Part shown: positions 13,924 through 38,157 of the stretch, one piece after another
Layout of the letters: every line of letters starts with the position of its first letter
Numbering within the stretch: position 1 is the stretch's first letter
NCBI RefSeq assembly: GCF_013488225.1
Contig: NZ_CP041240.1
Span: 248,001-312,000, forward strand
DNA length: 64,000 nt
Origin: Sinorhizobium mexicanum
GTDB taxonomy: Bacteria > Pseudomonadota > Alphaproteobacteria > Rhizobiales > Rhizobiaceae
Direction: 5' to 3'
Made by a program: the position numbers and the translations under genes
The notes under the pieces: generated by a model
The model's input: the letters and a program-made list of their open reading frames with translations, nothing else
What the model was told of the DNA's origin: nothing
Databases searched by the model: none

Positions 13924-14628
13924 TTAGCCGTCCGGTATATCGAGCGAGTAGCCGGCGGACCTGACGGTACGAATGACGCTGCCGGGGGAGGCGGTCTTCA
14001 GCGCTTTTCTGATCCGGCTGATATGGACGTCGACGGTGCGTGCACCGATATGGATATTGTTCGGCCAGGCCGCGTCGATCAGTTCGTCTCGGCTGAAGAC
14101 CTTGCCGGGAGCCTCAAGCAAATGCCGCAGCAGATTGAACTCGATCGGTCCGAGATGGATGTCGTGGCCGTTACCGCGAACTCGGTGGGCATCGAGCTTC
14201 ATCTCAAGGCTGCCGCAGCAAAGCCAGTTGCCGTTTTCGATCCCGTTTGAACCAGGCTTCGGCAGCGCCAGCTTCGTCCGTAGACAGTCAATGAGCTTGG
14301 CCGGCGCGATCGGCCGCACAAAGCTCTCGTCAATGCCTGCCTTCAAGAGATCGAGATGTTGGTTCTCGGCGCCGGGCGCGATCAGGGCAATAACGGGCAG
14401 CCCGCCTGTCCGGGGCTCCCCCTTAAGCCGGGCGCAGAGTGTGGCCCCTGACGCGCTTGCCGGCCCGCAGTCCAGCACCACCGCCTGGAGCTCCCTTTCA
14501 TCGGCCAATGCAAGTGCTTCCTCCATGCTATCAGCCGGCTCACATGCGAAGCCGTCCACCCCCAGAATGTGGCTGAGGAACAGATAGAACTCCACGTCTT
14601 GCGAACAGATCAGGACAAGTGGCTTCAT
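13924..14628 (-). CDS. Response-regulator-like protein with degenerate receiver and OmpR-type DNA-binding domain
   Basis: 234 residues from ATG 14628. The N-terminal half has the fold pattern of a receiver domain (PLVLICSQDVEFYLFLSHIL, LQAVVLDCGPASASG), but the acidic pair at the start is CSQD rather than DD and the usual Lys-Pro after strand 5 is Arg-Pro (FVRPI). Phosphorylation control is therefore doubtful. The C-terminal half is a winged helix of OmpR/PhoB type: LLRHLLEAPGKVFSRDELI, then GARTVDVHISRIRKAL and RTVRSAGYSL. From memory it resembles y4xI of pNGR234a. The frame continues upstream to an ATG at 14709 with AAGGGG before it; those 27 extra codons begin MSGLEDM, like the CCE_0567 start in the other nif copy, so a fusion product is possible. 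Confidence 0.85.
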   Translation of the reverse strand: MKPLVLICSQDVEFYLFLSHILGVDGFACEPADSMEEALALADERELQAVVLDCGPASASGATLCARLKGEPRTGGLPVIALIAPGAENQHLDLLKAGIDESFVRPIAPAKLIDCLRTKLALPKPGSNGIENGNWLCCGSLEMKLDAHRVRGNGHDIHLGPIEFNLLRHLLEAPGKVFSRDELIDAAWPNNIHIGARTVDVHISRIRKALKTASPGSVIRTVRSAGYSLDIPDG

Positions 14629-14736
14629 CAGCGCTACCCCGAGAACCAAATCGGCCTCGACCGCCTCGGTTGAGTGGGCTGGCCATCGCATGTCCTCAAG
14701 GCCTGACATGATCCCCTTGTTCGAAAATCGGTCCCA

Positions 14737-15225
14737 TCACGCCCGCGCCACGTCTGGATAGGCTTCAATCGCCGCTACCGCATCATCAACCAGTTTCGCA
14801 CCCACCTTTGCGAGTTTGCCAATTGTGTCGAAACCGAACCGATGGACGTCGCGAAGAGTCTTCGACAGAACGACCAACCGCCCCGTCGTCAGAACCACGC
14901 GGCCGAAGCCCTCATGGCTCATCATCATGGTAGACGATACCACCAGGCCGGAGCGCTGCTCGATCACAAGTGCCACGCAGGTATAGAAAATCTGCAACCG
15001 CCACAGCACGTCCGGGTCGGGATCGCCGATGATCGGGATCTCACGGCGCTGCTCCTTCGTGATGATGAAGTCGGCCAGGAGGTCTGCGTCGGATTTGTCT
15101 TCCCACATTCCATAGGTGTCCTGAGCGCGGATCTGCCGCATGAGGCACTTGAGGAAAGGCGTGGCAGGGGCTGTCTCGTCCGCGTCGACAGCAGGACCAT
15201 CCGCAGTAGCTTTCGGTCTTTTCAT
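14737..15225 (-). CDS. NifX-associated nitrogen fixation protein, DUF269 (copy 1)
   Basis: 162 residues, nearly the same as the second copy at 21060-21551. DUF269 proteins are found almost only next to nifX in diazotrophs and are thought to assist FeMo-cofactor handling, but the biochemical role is unknown. Recognisable blocks are [36 protein letters not shown] and [18 protein letters not shown]. Here it is the last nif gene of the partial second nif operon (nifN-nifX-DUF269), 16 bp after nifX. In this copy the next gene is the response-regulator-like protein rather than the CCE_0567 metalloprotein. Confidence 0.92.
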
Positions 15226-15241
15226 CGTTCAGTCCTCATCC

Positions 15242-15718
15242 TCAAAGGTTTCTTTCGGTGGCGCCTGCCTCCGCTAGCGCCTTGCGCAACCACGGCGGTG
15301 GAGCAGTCCTGAGCATCGTCCGGATTCGCGACAGCACGTCCTCAATGGATTGAGGCTGCGGTACTTTGATCGGATGGATTTTCGCCGAAACAACCTTGGC
15401 TACCGAAGGACCACCGATCGCCAGACAAAATAGCAGGTGACAGCCCTTCAACGCCTCCACTTTCGGAGTAATTCGGTCATCGCCCTCAGTCCGGTGCTTC
15501 CCGCTCTCATCGGAAACATCTTCAAAGGCGACGGCTTCCACGAAATTCCAGTCATCGGACGTCACGTCATAGACAACGAAGCGCTGGGCCGACCCGAAGT
15601 GGGCATCGAGGCTTTTCATGTCTTGCGTGGCGATCGCGACGCGCAAGGCACCAGCTTGCCGTTGCGGTATCAGTGGGTACCGGTCAGCGGCGAGCGAAAG
15701 GCGACGAACGGAAGTCAT
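15242..15718 (-). CDS. nifX: Nitrogen fixation protein NifX (copy 1)
   Basis: About 158 residues. NifX binds the FeMo-cofactor precursor NifB-co/VK-cluster during nitrogenase cofactor synthesis. The dinitrogenase-iron-molybdenum cofactor-binding domain is clear: LRVAIATQDMKSLDAHFGSA, then FVVYDVTSDDW and KGCHLLFCLAIGGPSVAKV. I chose ATG 15718, ten bases after the nifN stop; the longer frame overlaps nifN. Compared with copy 2 (21555-22049) there are scattered substitutions in the N-terminal leader and the last residues, and this copy lacks the FEDED tail. Part of the operon read from the captured nifH promoter at 17357-17372. Confidence 0.93.
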   Translation of the reverse strand: MTSVRRLSLAADRYPLIPQRQAGALRVAIATQDMKSLDAHFGSAQRFVVYDVTSDDWNFVEAVAFEDVSDESGKHRTEGDDRITPKVEALKGCHLLFCLAIGGPSVAKVVSAKIHPIKVPQPQSIEDVLSRIRTMLRTAPPPWLRKALAEAGATERNL

Positions 15719-15728
15719 CTGGCGTTTC

Positions 15729-17069
15729 TCATTTACGGAATGGATCGAGTGACTCGGGCCTTGGCGCGTGCTGGTTGGGCTGGAAGATGTTGGCAACATC
15801 GAAGATCAGGTCGCGCGTCCCCTGATAGAGGATCGTGAGCTTATGCTGGCTGCCGAGTCGGTCGAAGATCGGGAAACCGATGCGCATGAGCGGAATACCG
15901 AGGCGCTCGGCCGCCTGGCGTCCGTGCGAATGGGTGACGAGGAGATCAGCGCCCGCGGCAAGACCTTCGAGATCGCCAAGATCGCCGACCTGGACCTGTT
16001 CGGCCGGCACCTTCTTGAGAATTTTCGAGGTGCCGGTCGTGGTGACAGCCGCCGAGATTTCGGCGCCCATCCCGGTGAAGAAAGTCGCGAACTGGTAAAG
16101 CTGGTCCGGCTCGGCGGCGATGGCAATCTTTTTGCCGCCAAAATGAAGGTGTCCGTCGAGCAAGGCGTCCTGAAGCTGTGCGCGGCGACGGCGGATTATC
16201 GCTGGCGCTGGCGCACGGGAGATTGAAGAAAGCAGCGAGACGAAACGGTCTGTGTCCTTCAATCCTGTAAGGGAATGAAACAAGGCATAAGGCACTCCGG
16301 TCAGTCTTTGCAGCACCTCCGCCGGAGGGCGCATATGCTCGCCGATCGCGATGCATTGCACCGCCGTGCCAAGCTCCTGGATGTCCTTAACGCTGGTGCC
16401 GCCATAGGTGGTCGGCACCCAACGGTCGTCTGGCACCGTACCATCGAGCGAGCCGGAGAGGTCGGGCAGAATCACTGGCTTGAGGCCGAAGCTTTCCACC
16501 GTCTCGCGCAAAAGCGCGATGTCAGCGACCGTGAGGTTCCAGCCCGGCAGGATCGCAATCTTCTTCGACTGCCGAACCCGCTCACCACGCAGTGTAAGTC
16601 TTTGGATCAGGGCGGTGACCGCCCGGGCCCAACCCTCCTCAATCGCACCATGGAAATCCGGCGTGTTGGCCAGAACAATCTCCGTACCTGCGAGTTCTTT
16701 AGCGTGCATCATCTTGATGTTCGCGAGATCCCTTGCGAAATCCTCTCCACGGGTTTCCGCTAGCGCCGTCGTGCAGACCCCGATCAGTTTCGGGTTCGTG
16801 CGGGTCTTTAGATTGAGGATCGCTTCCTCCAGATGGTCCATGCCACCGAGGATCGTCGCCACCTCGTCCATCGCCGTGGTCTGCAAGGGAACGGCTTCCT
16901 TAAAGTGCCGCACGAGAAGTACCAGAGCAAAGCTGGTGCAGCCTTGGCTGCCGTGGAATAGCGGGATTGCACCATCGATCCCAAGGAAGGCGAGCGCGGC
17001 ACCCAGCGGCTGCGAGGACTTTAGCGGATTGACCGCCGACGATTTGGTTTGGGGGAGGATGCCGCTCAT
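15729..17069 (-). CDS. nifN: Nitrogenase cofactor assembly protein NifN (copy 1)
   Basis: 446 residues. NifN forms the NifEN scaffold on which the FeMo-cofactor precursor matures. Typical features: NPLKSSQPLGAALAFLGIDG near the start, LFHGSQGCTSFALVL with the cluster cysteine, ETRGEDFARDL, and AILPGWNLTVADI. It is about 90% identical by eye to copy 2 but ends ...DPFRK, without the 15-residue tail of copy 2. Its ATG overlaps the stop of the nifH'-nifE' chimeric frame (ATGA). No complete nifE lies in front, so its partner must be the NifE encoded at 23397-24974. Confidence 0.94.
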   Translation of the reverse strand: MSGILPQTKSSAVNPLKSSQPLGAALAFLGIDGAIPLFHGSQGCTSFALVLLVRHFKEAVPLQTTAMDEVATILGGMDHLEEAILNLKTRTNPKLIGVCTTALAETRGEDFARDLANIKMMHAKELAGTEIVLANTPDFHGAIEEGWARAVTALIQRLTLRGERVRQSKKIAILPGWNLTVADIALLRETVESFGLKPVILPDLSGSLDGTVPDDRWVPTTYGGTSVKDIQELGTAVQCIAIGEHMRPPAEVLQRLTGVPYALFHSLTGLKDTDRFVSLLSSISRAPAPAIIRRRRAQLQDALLDGHLHFGGKKIAIAAEPDQLYQFATFFTGMGAEISAAVTTTGTSKILKKVPAEQVQVGDLGDLEGLAAGADLLVTHSHGRQAAERLGIPLMRIGFPIFDRLGSQHKLTILYQGTRDLIFDVANIFQPNQHAPRPESLDPFRK

Positions 17070-17284
17070 CGGCTTTCCTCAACGCTCGCCAAAGCCGTCG
17101 GCTGTTGTGCGGATACTTTTTTTGACGGCGTGGACGGTCTCGGTTCCGCTCTGCGTACTTGGCAGTTCCTCCTCGACCGTAGGTTGGTAAATCCCACGGT
17201 GCGGGCTCCCGCACCTGGTGCCAGATTATGGGTTGTGTGAATGGCAAGGTCGATCTGGCGTACGAGTTGACGCAAATCTGACAT
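17066..17284 (-). pseudogene. nifH 5' end joined to nifE 3' end (internal deletion scar)
   Basis: A 72-codon frame that begins with the exact nifH start (MSDLRQ, same leader and ribosome site as the nifH at 29132) and continues directly with the nifE tail ([10 protein letters not shown]..., compare nifE residues about 460 onward). The middle is frameshifted relative to nifE (GARTVGFTNLRSRRN), and it returns to a nifE-like end (VSAQ...VEESR). It shows that nifH, nifD, nifK and most of nifE were deleted between two points, leaving the nifH promoter and start in front of nifN. It probably works only as a translated leader: its stop overlaps the nifN start. Confidence 0.85.
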
Positions 17285-17356
17285 GTTGCCTTCCTTCCTT
17301 CATTCCACCGATCGCGCAATGTCGGTCGGCCGCTCGCGCCGCCTCGCATTGAAGGT

Positions 17357-17372
17357 TTCAAAACTCGTGCCA
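17357..17372 (-). promoter_or_regulatory. Sigma54 -24/-12 promoter of the nifN-nifX copy
   Basis: Minus strand TGGCAC-GAGTT-TTGAA, identical in core to the promoter of the complete nifH operon (29203-29218). It lies 73 bp upstream of the nifH-derived start codon. The NifA site sits 79 bp further upstream. Confidence 0.85.
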
Positions 17373-17450
17373 ATCTGGTTGAGCGAGTCCAAGGAGAGGA
17401 CTTTTGATTTCTTTCAGCTATTTGGTGTGGGGATCGGCTAAACAAGCCTG

Positions 17451-17466
17451 TGTCGCTGACCGGACA
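17451..17466 (-). promoter_or_regulatory. NifA upstream activator site
   Basis: TGT-N10-ACA (TGTCGCTGACCGGACA), the exact NifA-binding consensus, at the usual distance from the -24 element. It corresponds to the site at 29310-29325 before the intact nifH. Confidence 0.85.
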
Positions 17467-17865
17467 AAGCGGACAGCAAGGTGTCGGATGGCACTATTTG
17501 CGACGGATATACCTTCCGTTCGCCGGAGACGCACAACGCTTGACATCCACTCTCGCCGTAAACGGCTGCTCTGGCCGGGAAACCGTCTAGACTAGTGTAA
17601 TCGAAATACCGCATGGGCGACTGCAGAACTGCGATGCCCGAGCGTGCACGGAGCGAGGCGGAGCTCCCGCTTGGCTTCAGGACTGACGCGAGAAGGGACC
17701 ACTGGCTACGAACACGTCCCTTGGCTTCATCACCGCTATCGTGCTATGTCGGAATCTTCGTGGAACATCGGTCAACGCGAACGCGGTTGGGAGCGTGAAT
17801 TCCGCTTCCTCGCGGCGAAATCCTGTCCGCCGTCCGGGGGACGCCGCGCAACAGACTGTCTGGCT

Positions 17866-17881
17866 TGTAAAGACCGCGACA
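17866..17881 (+). promoter_or_regulatory. NifA upstream activator site, orphan promoter
   Basis: TGT-AAAGACCGCG-ACA, a perfect TGT-N10-ACA, 85 bp before a -24/-12 element reading in the plus direction (17967-17982). The spacing is right for NifA activation. The palindromic core also allows it to be read from the other strand. Confidence 0.65.
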
Positions 17882-17966
17882 CGCTGGTGGCCAGACTTCC
17901 CGCTATGCTCTCATTTAAATACTTGAATCATATGTAGAAAAATTTTATTAGGCCCTTGCTGGTGGA

Positions 17967-17982
17967 TGGCACGATTTTTGAG
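17967..17982 (+). promoter_or_regulatory. Sigma54 promoter pointing right, no clear target gene
   Basis: TGGCAC-GATTT-TTGAG on the plus strand, with a perfect NifA site upstream. The next convincing gene in this direction is many kilobases away; acdS, the nearest gene, is on the opposite strand and would be read antisense from its 3' end. It could serve a small RNA, a lost gene or a small ORF such as 18253-18486. Confidence 0.6.
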
Positions 17983-18864
17983 GATTCCTCATTGCCGAGC
18001 ATTGTCGTCCCTAAGGTTAGGTTCCGTTAGACGCCACGTGCTCGGCATAGTTCCCGACTCTTAGCTGCTGCAGCAGCAGGTGGAGTACACTATCACGTCC
18101 TATTCATTTCTGGCGTGCGGTCACTGTGCGACCTGGGACGGTTTGCCCGATTCGAAGTGGGTGCTTGAGCCGAACGCCAGATCATCCCGAAGCATGGATA
18201 GAGGAAAGCGGCGGAAGCAGGCTCCTCCTGAGTAACCGGTAAGGTTGGTGCCATGCAGTCCAGGGTATCAGGCAGTGTCACCATCACCGGTGCGCGGTAC
18301 TGGGCGCAAATCACTGCGTTACCTGCGAGCGAACGTTCGGTTAATCGACGAGCAGCAAATTTATCCTCGACGAACCTCGGGCAGCAGACCGCTGGGTCGG
18401 CCATGAAGCGTTGGTTCTTTGGTGTCGGCCTGGCCGAGTTCTGCATGCCGAGTATGTACCCTGTGTCAAGCGAAGCGAAGATTTGACCACTATTCACAGC
18501 CTAGCACTCGTCGGGTGCCAGCCTCGCAAGTCTCCCTAATTGGAGGTCTAGAGACGCCGGGGCTCACCGCGGCAACAGACGGATACCTTCTAATGATGGC
18601 CACCGCCAACTCGGATTGCCATCGCTTGGTTAGGGGTAGAATGGCGAGCCGGCACTCAGCCGATCATCAACATGATTGTCGGTGCTTTCTCGCCCTTACC
18701 AACCACTTCGCACGCGAGCTGGTTCTGCGATCCGAATTCATGGCGGGGTGGCGCGGCGACAAGATCAACAGGGCATCCGCCGCTTCATGCGCGGCGAAAA
18801 CGATCTGTCGGCCGTCACAGCAGCAGCTTGTCGCTCTCGCGAATCATCTGAATGCTGTCGCGCA
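17983..18864. other. Region without a recognised gene
   Basis: About 880 bp between the orphan sigma54 promoter and the end of acdS. The longest frames are 134 codons on the minus strand (18093-18497) and 155 on the plus strand (18419-18886). Neither shows a domain, signal peptide or good ribosome site that I recognise. It may hold a decayed gene or a non-coding transcript. Confidence 0.35.
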
Positions 18865-20518: not shown

Positions 20519-20836
20519 TCATGCTACGACCTTGTCAGCCGCAACATGGGTCTGGCAGTTCTTCGGGCACACGCGGGCGCAGGCTCCGCAGCCGATGCAG
20601 CGTCCGGCTTGGTCAACGACCATGATCATGCGGTTCAGCTCACCATCGAAGTCGTCCTCCTCGTCGTCGCAGATACCGAGGATTTCACCCGCATCATCGA
20701 CGCCGTAAAGGTGCATGACCTCGCGCGAGCAGACCTTGAAGCACCGGCCGCAGCCGATGCAGGTGGCGCCATTGATCGCGGTCAGATATTCCGGCATCCA
20801 GTTTGTGCCGTCGCGGGTAACGAAAGGGTTCGTCAT
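20519..20836 (-). CDS. fdxB: Ferredoxin III, nif-specific
   Basis: 105 residues with two [4Fe-4S] motifs: CIGCGRCFKVC around residues 26-36 with a following Cys, and CIGCGACARVCPKNC around residues 80-94. An acidic linker (CDDEEDDFDGE) separates them, as in FdxB of other diazotrophs. It is thought to supply electrons for nitrogenase or cofactor assembly. The start overlaps the stop of the CCE_0567 gene by four bases (ATGA), so the two are translationally coupled. Confidence 0.92.
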   Translation of the reverse strand: MTNPFVTRDGTNWMPEYLTAINGATCIGCGRCFKVCSREVMHLYGVDDAGEILGICDDEEDDFDGELNRMIMVVDQAGRCIGCGACARVCPKNCQTHVAADKVVA

Positions 20837-21036
20837 GATGAGTTCTCCAACGCGCTGAGCTCTCTCTTCGCAGCGTCCAACTCGGCAAAGGCGTCGAATG
20901 TTTTCTCGGCAACCACTTTGATCTCGGTCCAGTTGACTGGTAGGTCCTCGGCGAGGTCGTGCAATTCCATCTTGGCAGTTCCCGCTCGCGACTGCAGTTT
21001 GCGGACTTTCTTCTTAAGTTCCTCAAGGTCTGACAT
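20833..21036 (-). CDS. CCE_0567 family metalloprotein (DUF683)
   Basis: 67 residues, almost entirely alpha-helical by composition: LEELKKKVRKLQSRAGTAKM and AFAELDAAKRELSALE, with LAEDLPVNW between. This small family is found beside nifX/DUF269 in many diazotrophs; cyanobacterial members bind metal, but the function is not settled. I chose ATG 21036, which has GGAGG upstream, rather than the nine-codon-longer frame. Only a short start-like remnant remains in the copy-1 region, at 14709. Confidence 0.85.
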   Translation of the reverse strand: MSDLEELKKKVRKLQSRAGTAKMELHDLAEDLPVNWTEIKVVAEKTFDAFAELDAAKRELSALENSS

Positions 21037-21059
21037 GATCTCCTCCCTCGAAACCCCTC

Positions 21060-21551
21060 TCATTGCGCCCGCGCCACGTCGGGATAGGTTTCGATGGCTG
21101 CGACCGCATCATCGACCAGTTTCGCACCTGCCTCCGCGAGTTTGCCAAGTGTGTCGAAGCCAAACCGGTGGACGTCACGAAGGGTCTTCGACAGGACAAC
21201 CAACCGCCCGGTCGTGAGGAGTACCCGGCCGAAGCCCTCATGGCTCATCATCATGGTCGACGATACCACCAGGCCGGAGCGCTGCTCGATCACAAGCCCC
21301 ACGCAGGTGTAGAAAATCTGCAGCCTCCACAGCACGTCCGGGTCGGGATCGCCAATGATCGGGATCTCACGTCGCTGCTTCTTGGTGACGATGAAGTCGG
21401 CCAACAGCTCAGCATCCGCCTTACCTTCCCACGATCCGTAGGAATCCTGCGCACGGATCAGCCGCATGAGGCACTTGAGGAAAGGCGTGGCAAGGGCCGT
21501 CTCGTCCTCGTGCACAGTAGGACCATCCGCAGTAGCTTTCGGTCTTTTCAT
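21060..21551 (-). CDS. NifX-associated nitrogen fixation protein, DUF269 (copy 2)
   Basis: 163 residues, close duplicate of 14737-15225. It has the same blocks: [36 protein letters not shown] and [18 protein letters not shown]. It begins three bases after the nifX stop and is followed 23 bp later by CCE_0567. This is the standard order nifX-DUF269-CCE_0567-fdxB, so this copy is in its original context. Confidence 0.93.
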
Positions 21552-21554
21552 CGT

Positions 21555-22049
21555 TCAGTCCTCATCCTCAAAGGATTTCTTTTCGGTCGCGCCTGCCTCC
21601 GCTAGCACCTTGCGCAACCAAGGCGGAGGAGCAGTCCTGAGCATCGTCCGGGTTCGCGACAGCACGTTTTCAATGGATTGAGGCTGCGGCACTTTGATCG
21701 GATGGATTTTCGCTGAAATAACCTTGGCTGCCGAAGGACCGCCGATCGCCAGACAAAATAGCAGGTGACAACCCTTCAACGCCTCCACTTTCGGAGTAAT
21801 TCGGTCATCGCCCTCGGTTCGGTGCTTGCCGCTTTCGTCGGAAACATCTTCAAAGGCGACGGCTTCCACGAAATTCCAGTCATCGGACGTGACGTCATAG
21901 ACAGCGAAACGCTTGGCCGACCCGAAATGCGCGTTGAGGCTCTTCATATCTTGCGTGGCGATCGCCACGCGCAACGAACCGGTTTTCACTTTCGGCCCCG
22001 GTGGGTGAACCTCGTCAGTGACGAGCGAGAGTCGGCGGGCGGCTGTCAT
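21555..22049 (-). CDS. nifX: Nitrogen fixation protein NifX (copy 2)
   Basis: 164 residues. Same cofactor-binding domain as copy 1 (LRVAIATQDMKSLNAHFGSA, AVYDVTSDDW, GCHLLFCLAIGGPSAAKV), with a charged C-terminal tail (KKSFEDED) that copy 1 has lost. Start chosen at ATG 22049, which overlaps the end of nifN by 35 bases because nifN is longer in this copy. It handles the FeMo-cofactor precursor between NifB and NifEN. Confidence 0.93.
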   Translation of the reverse strand: MTAARRLSLVTDEVHPPGPKVKTGSLRVAIATQDMKSLNAHFGSAKRFAVYDVTSDDWNFVEAVAFEDVSDESGKHRTEGDDRITPKVEALKGCHLLFCLAIGGPSAAKVISAKIHPIKVPQPQSIENVLSRTRTMLRTAPPPWLRKVLAEAGATEKKSFEDED

Positions 22050-23400
22050 CTGGCATTTCCCGGTTACGCAATGGATCGAGTGATTGAGGCGTTGGAGCGT
22101 GCTGGTTGGCCTGGAAGATGTTTGAGACATCGAAGATCAGGTCGCGCGTCCCCTGATAGAGGATCGTGAGCTTGTGCTGACTGCCGAGGCGGTCGAAGAT
22201 CGGGAAGCCCACGCGCATTTGCGGAATGCCAAGGCGCTCAGCCGCCTGGCGTCCGTGCGAATGGGTGACGAGAAGATCAGCGCCCGCGGCAAGACCCTCA
22301 AGATCGCCAAGATCACCGACCTGGACCTGTTCGGCCGGCACTTTCTCGAGAATTTTCGAGGTGCCGGTCGTGGTGACGGCCGCCGCGATTTCGGCGCCCA
22401 TGCCGGTGAAGAAGGTCGCGAGCTGGTAGAGTTGGTCCGGCTCGGCGGCGATGGCAATTTTCTTTCCGCCGAAATGGAAATGACCGTCGAGCAGCGCGTC
22501 CTGTAGCTGTGCGCGGCGACGGCGGACTCTCGCTGGCACCGGCCCACCGGAAATCCAGCCAAGCAGCGAGACGAAACGGTCTGTGTTCGTCAAACCTGTA
22601 AGCGACTGAAACACCGCATAAGGCACTCCGGTCAGGCTCTGCAGCACCTCCGCCGGACGATGCATATGCTCGCCGATTGCGATGCACTGCGCCGCCGTGC
22701 CAAGCTCCTGGATGTCCTTGACGGTGGTGCCGCCATACGTGGTCGGCACCCAACGATCATCAGGGACCGTTCCGTCGAGCGAACCGGAGAGATCGGGCAG
22801 AATGACTGGCTTGAGGCCGAAGCTTTCCACCGTCTCGCGCAAATGTTCGATGTCAGCGACCGTGAGGTTCCAGCCTGGCAAGATCGCAACCTTCTTCGGC
22901 TGCCGCGCCTTCTCACCGCGCAACGTAATCCTTTGGATCATCGCGGTGACGGCCTTGGCCCAGCCCTCCTCAATCGCGCCGTCGAAATCCGGCGTGTTCG
23001 CCAGCACAATCTCGGTACCTGCGAGTTCTTTGGCGCGCATCATCTTGATGTTCGCGAGATCCCTTGCGAAATCCTCTCCACGGGTTTCCACCAGTGCCGT
23101 GGTACAGACCCCGATCAGTCTCGGGTTCGTGCGGCTCTTCAGATTGAGGATCGCTTCCTCCAGATGGTCCATGCCCCCGAGGATCGTCGCCACCTCGTCC
23201 ATCGCCGTTGTCTGCAAGGGGACGGCTTCCTTGAAGTGTCTGACGCAAAGTACCAGCGCAAAGCTGGCGCAGCCCTGGCTGCCGTGGAACAGCGGTACCG
23301 CACCATCGACCCCAAGGAAGGCGAGCGCAGCGCCCAGCGGCTGCGAGGACTTTAGCGGATTGACCGCCGCCCATTTGGTTTGGGGAAAAATGCGGGTCAT
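22015..23400 (-). CDS. nifN: Nitrogenase cofactor assembly protein NifN (copy 2)
   Basis: 461 residues, beta-like subunit of the NifEN scaffold. It has NPLKSSQPLGAALAFLGVDG, LFHGSQGCASFALVL, VETRGEDFARDLANIKMM and ILPGWNLTVADIEHLRETVE. It has a 15-residue C-terminal extension (after DPLRN) not present in copy 1; the extension runs through the nifX start region. ATG overlaps the nifE stop by four bases (ATGA). This copy has a complete nifE partner directly upstream. Confidence 0.96.
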   Translation of the reverse strand: MTRIFPQTKWAAVNPLKSSQPLGAALAFLGVDGAVPLFHGSQGCASFALVLCVRHFKEAVPLQTTAMDEVATILGGMDHLEEAILNLKSRTNPRLIGVCTTALVETRGEDFARDLANIKMMRAKELAGTEIVLANTPDFDGAIEEGWAKAVTAMIQRITLRGEKARQPKKVAILPGWNLTVADIEHLRETVESFGLKPVILPDLSGSLDGTVPDDRWVPTTYGGTTVKDIQELGTAAQCIAIGEHMHRPAEVLQSLTGVPYAVFQSLTGLTNTDRFVSLLGWISGGPVPARVRRRRAQLQDALLDGHFHFGGKKIAIAAEPDQLYQLATFFTGMGAEIAAAVTTTGTSKILEKVPAEQVQVGDLGDLEGLAAGADLLVTHSHGRQAAERLGIPQMRVGFPIFDRLGSQHKLTILYQGTRDLIFDVSNIFQANQHAPTPQSLDPLRNREMPDDSRPPTLARH

Positions 23401-28238: not shown

Positions 28239-29234
<996 letters not shown>

Positions 29235-29309
29235 TCAAGGAAAGGTCTTTTGCTTGTTTTTCAGCTATTTAGGCCCAGACACAACGAACAATTCCGCGCA
29301 ACAATCCTG

Positions 29310-29325
29310 TGTCGCGGTTTCGACA
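29310..29325 (-). promoter_or_regulatory. NifA upstream activator site of nifH
   Basis: TGT-N10-ACA (plus strand TGTCGCGGTTTCGACA), 92 bp upstream of the -24 element. Exact match to the NifA consensus. Confidence 0.9.
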
Positions 29326-36443: not shown

Positions 36444-37985
36444 TCACAAGGCAAGCAGGTAGGCAACCAGCGCATCCTTTTCTCTCTGCGTAAGCTTTGT
36501 TCCCAGAACCAGATTGAAGAACTCGACCGTGTCGGCGAGTGTCAACAGCCGCCCATCGTGCAAATAGGGCGGCGAGTCCTTGATACCGCGCAGTGTGAAG
36601 GTCTTGATCGGACCGTCCGGTAACATCACGAGATCGTTGGCGCTCTGGCCTGTTCTATAGAAGCGCTCGAGCTTGAGGTCGTGCATGTTGTTGTCCACGA
36701 AGGCAGTCTCCGGGACGTGGCAAACGGCGCAGCCACCCTTGCCCATGAACACCTGTTCGCCCTCCAGTTCCTGTTCGCTCGCCCCGCTTGGATCGAGGCG
36801 TCCGAACACGTCGAGCTTGGGCGCGGGCGGGAAGTCGATCATGTTCTGCATCTGCGCCATCATTGAAACCTGGCTTGCACGATCGAGTAGGTTCACGCCC
36901 TTTCTAGCGGCGCTCACATGGTCGCCGTTGAAGTAGGCGGTGCGCTGCTCGAACTCAGTAAAGTCTTCGATCGACCGCAGCGACCGTTTCGAACCATGAA
37001 TCTGCTGATTGAACAGCCCGCGCAGGCTGGTCGTGTCGAGACGGAACCGCTGCGTCTGTGGCCGGACGTCGGGGGTCAGGTGGAAGGCGGCATTGGTATG
37101 GAAGTTCGAATGGCAGTCCAGGCAGGCGACGCCCAGGCTCTCCTCGGCAGCTTTGCGGTCCTCGGTTTCGTTGAACTCTTCTTGCGGAAACGGAGTTAGC
37201 AGAAGTCGAAGCCCTTCCATCTGCACCGGCGTGATGATGCCGCTCATGATCTCATTGAAGTTCCGGATCGTCAGAAGCTCGCCGCGCGAAACGTCACCGA
37301 GTTCCGGATGCGAGGTTAGAAAGATTGGCGGCGGAAACTCCGGCGTCAGGTGATCGGGGAGGTCGAAGTCGACATCGAAACGCCTAAGATCCCTGCCTTC
37401 CTGGCGGCCTATTTCATTAATCTGCACCTCCGGAAAGACCTGACCGCCAGTTGCGTGCTTTACATGCGGCAGCGGCATAAAGCCTGCCGGCAGTAGTCCC
37501 TGCTCTCTGATCTCGTCAGGGCTCTTCTCGGCCAAAGCGCCCCAGGTCACGCCCTTCGGAAGTTTGACGCGAACGCCGGCTTGAACCGCCTTCCGACGAC
37601 CGGACATCATCAAACCTTGCATGGGGCGGTCAGAAAGGTCATATCGCCCCTCAAGCAGGCGCCTCTGACGCTCCATGACGCGCGGCTTCGCACGTTCGTC
37701 GAATTCCTTCACTTCGGAAAAGGGACGGTTCGGAAAGGTTAGATAGATCAGATCAGCGGGCAGCGGATCAGACACGGTCGGAAAAGCGTGCGCGGAGACT
37801 GCGAATGCGATCGCCACACCGATCAGGATAAGCGACCTAAGCCGGGGCGTGTGGGCCTTTAGGTCGCAGCCCGCGATCATAATCTTCTGACCGAGATCGG
37901 CAAGAGTATAGGGCGTCTTTACCAAGGCGGTGAATGTTCGGATGCCTCTCTTCCAATAGAATGCGATCTGACGCAGACCTGACAT
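36444..37985 (-). CDS. NifH-fragment fused to a di-haem cytochrome c peroxidase/MauG-like protein
   Basis: 513 residues in one frame. Residues 1-48 are a decayed NifH start (SGLRQIAFYWKRGI... LADLGQKIMIAGCDLKA) in which the P-loop is destroyed. Residues 49-67 are a hydrophobic signal-peptide-like segment ending in AHA, followed by a periplasmic-type protein with two haem motifs, CLDCH (288-292) and CAVCH (419-423), as in bacterial cytochrome c peroxidases and MauG. The end ...FTLRGIKDSPPYLHDGR is also typical. No ATG lies at the signal-peptide start, so translation from the nifH start or from an internal GTG is likely. It is placed under a nifH-type sigma54 promoter (38065-38080). Confidence 0.85.
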   Translation of the reverse strand: MSGLRQIAFYWKRGIRTFTALVKTPYTLADLGQKIMIAGCDLKAHTPRLRSLILIGVAIAFAVSAHAFPTVSDPLPADLIYLTFPNRPFSEVKEFDERAKPRVMERQRRLLEGRYDLSDRPMQGLMMSGRRKAVQAGVRVKLPKGVTWGALAEKSPDEIREQGLLPAGFMPLPHVKHATGGQVFPEVQINEIGRQEGRDLRRFDVDFDLPDHLTPEFPPPIFLTSHPELGDVSRGELLTIRNFNEIMSGIITPVQMEGLRLLLTPFPQEEFNETEDRKAAEESLGVACLDCHSNFHTNAAFHLTPDVRPQTQRFRLDTTSLRGLFNQQIHGSKRSLRSIEDFTEFEQRTAYFNGDHVSAARKGVNLLDRASQVSMMAQMQNMIDFPPAPKLDVFGRLDPSGASEQELEGEQVFMGKGGCAVCHVPETAFVDNNMHDLKLERFYRTGQSANDLVMLPDGPIKTFTLRGIKDSPPYLHDGRLLTLADTVEFFNLVLGTKLTQREKDALVAYLLAL

Positions 37986-38080: not shown

Positions 38081-38157
38081 AGCAGGAAAGTGGTTAGAGA
38101 TTATTGTTCTGCACTTAGTCAGCGCTTGATAGCTGGACGCTGGGCGAACATCGGCGT

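Follow-up and report, generated by a model that had tools for sequence, protein, structure and literature searches.

A nifH promoter joined to a second nifN-nifX-DUF269 set in Sinorhizobium mexicanum and Sinorhizobium terangae

NifE and NifN form one scaffold complex, and why one NifEN subunit alone should receive its own strong promoter is a question that bears on nitrogenase engineering. It is raised by a 64-kb stretch of Sinorhizobium mexicanum DNA (the window), on whose minus strand the main nif operon is followed by acdS, a 1.43-kb spacer, a short second unit and a response regulator gene. In the second unit (copy 2) the promoter and first codons of nifH lead directly into the 3′ end of nifE and then into nifN, nifX and DUF269, at 88% DNA identity with the main copy. 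To judge from comparison with related loci, copy 2 is probably a NifA/sigma54-driven, translation-coupled nifN2-nifX2-DUF269 mini-operon, and would represent a two-copy stage of a recurrent relocation of nifN.

The composition of the unit, all of whose features lie on the minus strand, was read from two alignments with the main operon. The nifH part (17423-17263; promoter, leader and first codons) aligned with 29270-29111 at 88.3% identity over 162 columns, and the nifE-side part (17268-14693), which runs from the nifE 3′ end to just past DUF269, aligned with 23590-21020 at 87.6% over 2,582 columns. The two alignments join, with a two-base overlap, at the AA of nifH codon 6 (codons 1-6, MSDLRQ, 17267..17284). 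Relative to the main operon, copy 2 lacks about 5.5 kb at the junction; 203 bases of the nifE 3′ end are retained, and 215 bases separate the nifH start codon from the nifN start. The alignments, which match both nifH and nifE, agree with the initial annotation that promoter, NifA site, leader and six codons of nifH are joined to the end of nifE ahead of complete nifN, nifX and DUF269. They also support its proposal that the nifH promoter was captured when nifHDK and most of nifE were deleted; nifN, nifX and DUF269 are thereby doubled without nifE.

The captured promoter region fits the NifA/sigma54 pattern. A pattern scan found a TGT-N10-ACA upstream activator site (TGTCCGGTCAGCGACA, 17466-17451) upstream of a -24/-12 element of the form TGGCACG-N4-TTG (TTGGCACGAGTTTTGAA, 17373-17357), the latter with the same letters as the element of the main nifH promoter (29203..29325, minus strand; NifA site 29325-29310, -24/-12 element 29219-29203). 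Scanning both strands of the window gave three -24/-12 matches, and among these only the elements of main nifH and copy 2 had a TGT-N10-ACA within 250 bp upstream. An A at -12, as in the copy 2 element, has been reported for the nifH promoters of both R. etli and M. loti; in M. loti it is described as uncommon (9 of 186 promoters), and such a promoter may be served by RpoN2 alone (PMC3538637). Two rpoN genes were found in the genome of the window, one of them on the same contig as copy 2.

The same junction, base for base, was found on plasmid pCB3126_2 of S. terangae CB3126, so the event is not private to the window strain. This independent, complete plasmid rules out an assembly artefact, and because of the exact match the junction cannot be put down to chance either. 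Both copies have the same junction, spacer and nifN-nifX-DUF269 order, and both keep the promoter and a NifA or NifA-like site. They differ in that the S. terangae leader stays in the nifE frame, and in that CCE_0567-fdxB and a second acdS, not a response regulator gene, lie downstream (L005, 18911-21919, with an IS481 transposase inside an exoX-like gene in between). The spacer between acdS and the captured promoter (17431..18864 in the window) is 92% identical to its S. terangae counterpart; since the junction is also the same, it is very likely that the two plasmids inherited the arrangement together.

The arrangement was rare in the sequences searched. Of 33 congeneric genomes (the window's own included) 30 matched some part of the query, whereas promoter through DUF269 in one piece was present in two, the window's own and S. 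terangae CB3126. Among 82 plasmid records that matched the junction segment, a set that may omit records of the window's own genome, a single one, again S. terangae, covered at least 80% of that segment in one place. A family-wide sample of 394 genomes, among whose listed members S. numidicum and its kin do not figure, contained 25 in which NifN was matched at E below 1e-120; three of these 25 had two such matches (window, S. terangae and G022). Neither the junction nor a second nifN of this kind was found described in the openly licensed part of PMC, a limited library, searched by title and abstract start.

All three genes behind the captured promoter encode recognizable proteins. Intact nifN2 (15729..17069, 446 aa) scored 648.4 bits against TIGR01285 (cut-off 326.8), residues 4-430 spanning the whole model, and matched chain B of PDB 3pdi; its GSQGC cysteine region is kept, GSQGCTSF being aligned to GSQGCTAF. 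NifX2 (15242..15718, 158 aa) scored 180.9 bits against TIGR02663 (cut-off 112), and the NifX-associated DUF269 protein (14737..15225, 162 aa) scored 213.9 bits against TIGR02935 (cut-off 132.05) and also matched PF03270. The NifN1 and NifN2 proteins of the window are 89% identical over 445 residues. Between the copy 2 sets of the window and S. terangae, dS was 0.25 for nifN, 0.45 for nifX and 0.27 for DUF269, without internal stops, and dN/dS was 0.149, 0.253 and 0.113, respectively, compared with 0.123, 0.310 and 0.141 for the main copies. These ratios indicate that copy 2 evolves under purifying selection; taken with the changes at invariant sites given below, the constraint looks ordinary, perhaps slightly relaxed. 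A residue signature specific to NifN2 was also considered and rejected, as no derived residue common to both NifN2 proteins was absent from 17 other NifN.

Concerning parentage, the nifN of copy 2 belongs to the lineage of S. chiapasense. In a nifN tree of 26 rows the copy 2 genes of the window and S. terangae formed one clade with S. chiapasense and Sinorhizobium sp. 6-70 (support 100), and the main nifN genes of the window and S. terangae grouped elsewhere. The approximately unbiased (AU) test rejected a pairing of the two window copies (p=5.6e-8), and with it a recent duplication of the local operon, as well as a single clade of the four window and S. terangae copies (p=5.7e-6); in three of the four AU tests made, the groups were named after the tree had been seen. 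The initial annotation was thus right about a second nif operon with a deletion, and not about its being a duplicate of the window's own. Informative sites were counted for the split of the window and S. terangae main copies from S. chiapasense and 6-70 versus the two other pairings, giving 49/5/7 for nifN, 22/13/11 for nifE, 12/10/4 for nifK, 4/5/5 for nifD, 2/5/5 for nifH, 3/5/4 for nifX and 7/4/4 for DUF269; the split is strong only around nifN. The corresponding counts for the copy 2 pair versus the two main copies were 9/0/0 for the promoter, 48/6/9 for nifN and 17/0/4 for DUF269. The A-type NifN encoded by copy 2 is the only NifN found in S. chiapasense, and Sinorhizobium sp. 6-70 also has a single nifN. 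Judged by these comparisons, copy 2 would be either an old paralogue or an import.

We then asked what the fused nifH′-′nifE leader says about translation. As the initial annotation had described, a frame of 72 codons (17066..17284) ends in a TGA that overlaps the nifN ATG; its middle part is shifted by insertions and returns to the nifE frame at the end. The overlap had been taken as a sign of selection on translation, a view that we reject: the main nifE-nifN boundary has the same ATGA bases (GCCGATGA), so the overlap was inherited. The open frame had been read in the same way, and alone it is weak evidence, the probability of its arising by chance being 0.14 by Markov shuffles and, in simulations, 0.26 with assumed insertion sizes or 0.08 with random sizes. 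In S. terangae the leader measures 206 nt, against 215 nt in the window where indels were acquired, and its 69 codons are cleanly in frame with nifE; it is the native nifE frame and therefore gives no independent test of openness.

Selection on leader translation gains weight only from a wider comparison. In 13 of 13 nifH-promoter-led nifN leaders read (window, S. terangae, S. medicae, six S. meliloti-type strains, S. numidicum, S. garamanticum, M270 and USDA 6670), which represent three or four separate arrangements and, sharing descent in part, not 13 independent cases, the frame from the nifH start was open to the nifN start. In seven S. meliloti/medicae sequences matched by pattern, the leader frame is 110 codons long and ends in a TGATG at nifN; that of the diverged M270 is likewise open, and the sole leader indel there in the alignment is of 9 bases. 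In S. numidicum and S. garamanticum the open frame extends over 217 codons. The chance of an open frame per sequence was about 0.03-0.05 for the S. meliloti/medicae type and 0.013-0.016 for S. numidicum/garamanticum, both values from single-sequence Markov shuffles uncorrected for shared descent. An open leader is the rule before nifN and is not present in all remnants. The leader of remnant L122, which has no nifN, is open for about 140 codons and does not end at a gene start, and a nifH-type leader of 35 codons ends at the start of DUF269 in Sinorhizobium sp. 6-70 (L118).

A stand-alone, NifA-dependent nifN (fixF) of S. meliloti and S. medicae was reportedly described by Aguilar and co-workers in 1987. 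In the sequences compared here nifN lies apart from nifHDKE in both species. At all eight loci of this type that were read (L111 of G013, which is of S. medicae type, and seven of 63 plasmid records), nifN was preceded by a -24/-12 element of the nifH type that carries A at -12 and has a TGT-N10-ACA upstream of it; the own nifH promoter of G013 has C at -12. A nifH-start remnant and debris follow the promoter, and nifE is recognisable in the debris of the related USDA 6670 copy. Six-frame protein searches of the pSymA records of S. meliloti 2011, M270 and BL225C and of the G013 genome each yielded a single NifN match, which was the promoter-led nifN; a further match, at 30% identity, is NifK by place and score. 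Like copy 2, this unit stands outside the main operon and combines a nifH-type -24/-12 element, a NifA site, a nifH-start remnant and an open frame. Unlike copy 2, it has no nifX and DUF269 behind nifN in the mapped stretch (L111), its junctions differ, its nifN falls in another clade, and a second nifN was not found in the searches made. Thus promoter and nifH/nifE debris are common to both, whereas a sole nifN and common descent are not. Most likely, to judge from these shared parts, copy 2 works like the S. meliloti unit, and it stands apart from it in nifN lineage, in the retention of nifX and DUF269 and in the coexistence of an intact main nifN (22015-23400).

Another such arrangement was present in S. 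numidicum and S. garamanticum, where the nifH promoter and start are likewise followed, after deletion of nifHDKE, by an intact nifN and, in S. numidicum, then by DUF269. These loci differ from copy 2 by a 653-nt leader made of nifH and nifE pieces, a GTG start, the loss of most of nifX and a decayed main nifN, which is shortened in S. numidicum with GSQGC changed to GSQEC, and split between frames in S. garamanticum, where it reads GSQAC. USDA 6670 is the reverse case with an intact main and a broken promoter-led nifN, and in the window and S. terangae both copies are intact. One origin for all promoter-led nifN was rejected, since a single clade was not accepted by the AU test (p=0.0006). 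Two or more captures of the nifH promoter by nifN follow from this result, with the proviso that gene exchange could mimic it by blurring the tree. Reiterated nifH promoters are familiar from rhizobia (P1/P2/P3 of S. meliloti and the nifH copies of R. etli). As there, promoter and first codons are reused in the window before other symbiosis genes; here, unlike there, the acquirer is the distal part of the nif operon itself, by way of an internal deletion.

Altogether, we favour the following course of events. The symbiotic plasmid would have carried a second nif operon, whose nifN is of the S. chiapasense lineage and which was either imported or the product of an old duplication. A deletion at the AA microhomology, a mechanism that we infer from the junction, would then have removed all that lay from nifH codon 6 to the nifE 3′ end. 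In bacteroids, as the intact sites suggest, transcription of nifN2-nifX2-DUF269 as a separate mini-operon would depend on NifA with sigma54. Ribosomes would enter at the ribosome-binding site of nifH, translate the leader as far as the TGA over the nifN ATG, terminate there and re-initiate on nifN, which the open frame and the overlap make plausible. The extra NifN, NifX and DUF269 protein, otherwise encoded by the fifth to seventh genes of a long operon, would support NifEN scaffold assembly and cofactor traffic and might change the NifN:NifE dosage. The S. numidicum/garamanticum and S. meliloti/medicae units would be separately derived, the promoter-led nifN being the only sound copy found there.

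Several observations weigh against this account. In USDA 6670 the nifN2 frame is broken beyond codon 174 (its -24 element reads TTGACACG), and yet the leader is open; openness therefore does not track function there, and the strain is of no help as a negative control. Among the nifH-promoter-led remnants without nifN, the leader of L115 closes after five codons, and in L108 no such open frame was found by the patterns used. An exact TGT-N10-ACA was not found before nifN of S. numidicum and S. garamanticum in the stretches scanned. At 252 sites invariant in 17 other NifN, NifN2 is changed six times in the window and eight times in S. terangae, compared with one to five changes in six control NifN, for each of which the reference was the 253-257 sites that do not vary among the remaining sixteen. 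The main nifN of S. chiapasense nests among the captured copies (AU test against the captured pair alone, p=0.005), which a simple single history does not predict, and nifX2 (3/2/4) gives no support for the copy 2 sets as sisters, which suggests a possible exchange within copy 2. From the uneven site counts along the operon and the S. chiapasense nesting we conclude that recombination among the plasmid lineages has occurred.

The slightly relaxed NifN2 and the broken promoter-led nifN of USDA 6670 would also suit a different explanation, according to which copy 2 is a redundant remnant, one of many decaying nif-operon duplicates, perhaps transcribed, without fitness effect and intact through recency or gene exchange. 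nifH-promoter-led remnants are known at various stages of decay, and neither S. chiapasense nor Sinorhizobium sp. 6-70 has more than one nifN. We consider this unlikely, if worth serious attention: the fused nifN pair combines a dS of 0.25 with a dN/dS of 0.15, nifN, nifX and DUF269 are stop-free in both species, and since copy 2 and main nifN stay distinct (48/6/9), copy 2 does not owe its intactness to conversion by the main nifN beside it. The retention in two species of both NifN1 and NifN2, at 89% identity, could point to a specialised second NifN, with A-type NifN2 and NifX2 serving a particular host or metal supply as another form of NifEN complex or as a set of carriers. This is improbable, given that the two NifN2 share no residue absent from the 17 other NifN and that the A-type is the sole NifN of S. 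chiapasense. Slightly more improbable still is that the promoter matters mainly for downstream genes (DUF269, response regulator) with nifN as a passenger; the response regulator behind copy 2, the leader ending at DUF269 in 6-70 and the remnants L115 and L108, which retain only nifX pieces and DUF269, would fit, but S. terangae copy 2 lacks the response regulator, nifN2 is intact and constrained, and in the S. meliloti unit neither nifX nor DUF269 follows nifN in the mapped stretch.

The surroundings of the two units were also compared. The main operon, the reference copy, is a complete nifHDKENX-DUF269-CCE_0567-fdxB (29132-20519, minus strand), with acdS at 19878-18865 on the same strand. 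Its DUF269 runs straight into CCE_0567-fdxB (20833-21063), and the PhoB-type response regulator gene (13924..14709, minus strand) follows copy 2; in many Mesorhizobium loci, S. chiapasense and Sinorhizobium sp. 6-70 a response regulator gene follows the main DUF269. It thus appears from gene order that the two operon tails have changed places in the window. The common layout across the loci compared was nifHDKENX-DUF269-response regulator and then a second DUF269-CCE_0567-fdxB-acdS block. A nifH fragment of about 95 bp (about positions 203-299) stands ahead of the latter block in 13 of 70 loci (L038-L107), at about 16.8 kb in L038, L041, L047 and others. Since second DUF269 blocks and nifH fragments recur across loci, these loci may plausibly change, in general, through deletions between duplicated units.

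A whole-genome search with the nifH start region gave four places, all on contig C3: main nifH, copy 2 (88%) and two others (77% and 73%). The 73% stretch (G000:C3:341411-341533, L139) is promoter-like and lies about 0.7 kb from an rpoN domain match on that contig. A gene at 36444-37985 of the window (minus strand), with two CxxCH motifs, has a promoter at 38081 (TTGGCACAAATTTTGAA), a leader and about 45 first codons that resemble the nifH 5′ end; the nifH-like start stands before an apparent signal peptide, and a NifA site was not found at its promoter. Its counterpart in S. chiapasense (L006, 4978-6519; annotated as cytochrome B6) has the same arrangement, and Pfam at 1e-3 listed for the product a sole, sub-cut-off NifH match (23.8 of 25 bits). 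This looks like a second capture of a nifH start, as a protein extension.

The promoter takeover ahead of nifN in the window is of the same kind as that before S. meliloti nifN, and the locus suggests an origin for the separate nifN of this model species. It also provides a natural strain with both nifN arrangements intact, in which dosage, promoter and leader coupling are separable in one background. More broadly, and more tentatively, rhizobial plasmids may repeatedly move nifN and its neighbours out of nifHDKENX by deletions that join them to a nifH promoter and start codon, the debris in between being kept by selection as a translated leader from which ribosomes pass on to nifN. The window and S. 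terangae would then represent the two-copy stage of this route, and the separate nifN genes of S. meliloti and S. numidicum its end.

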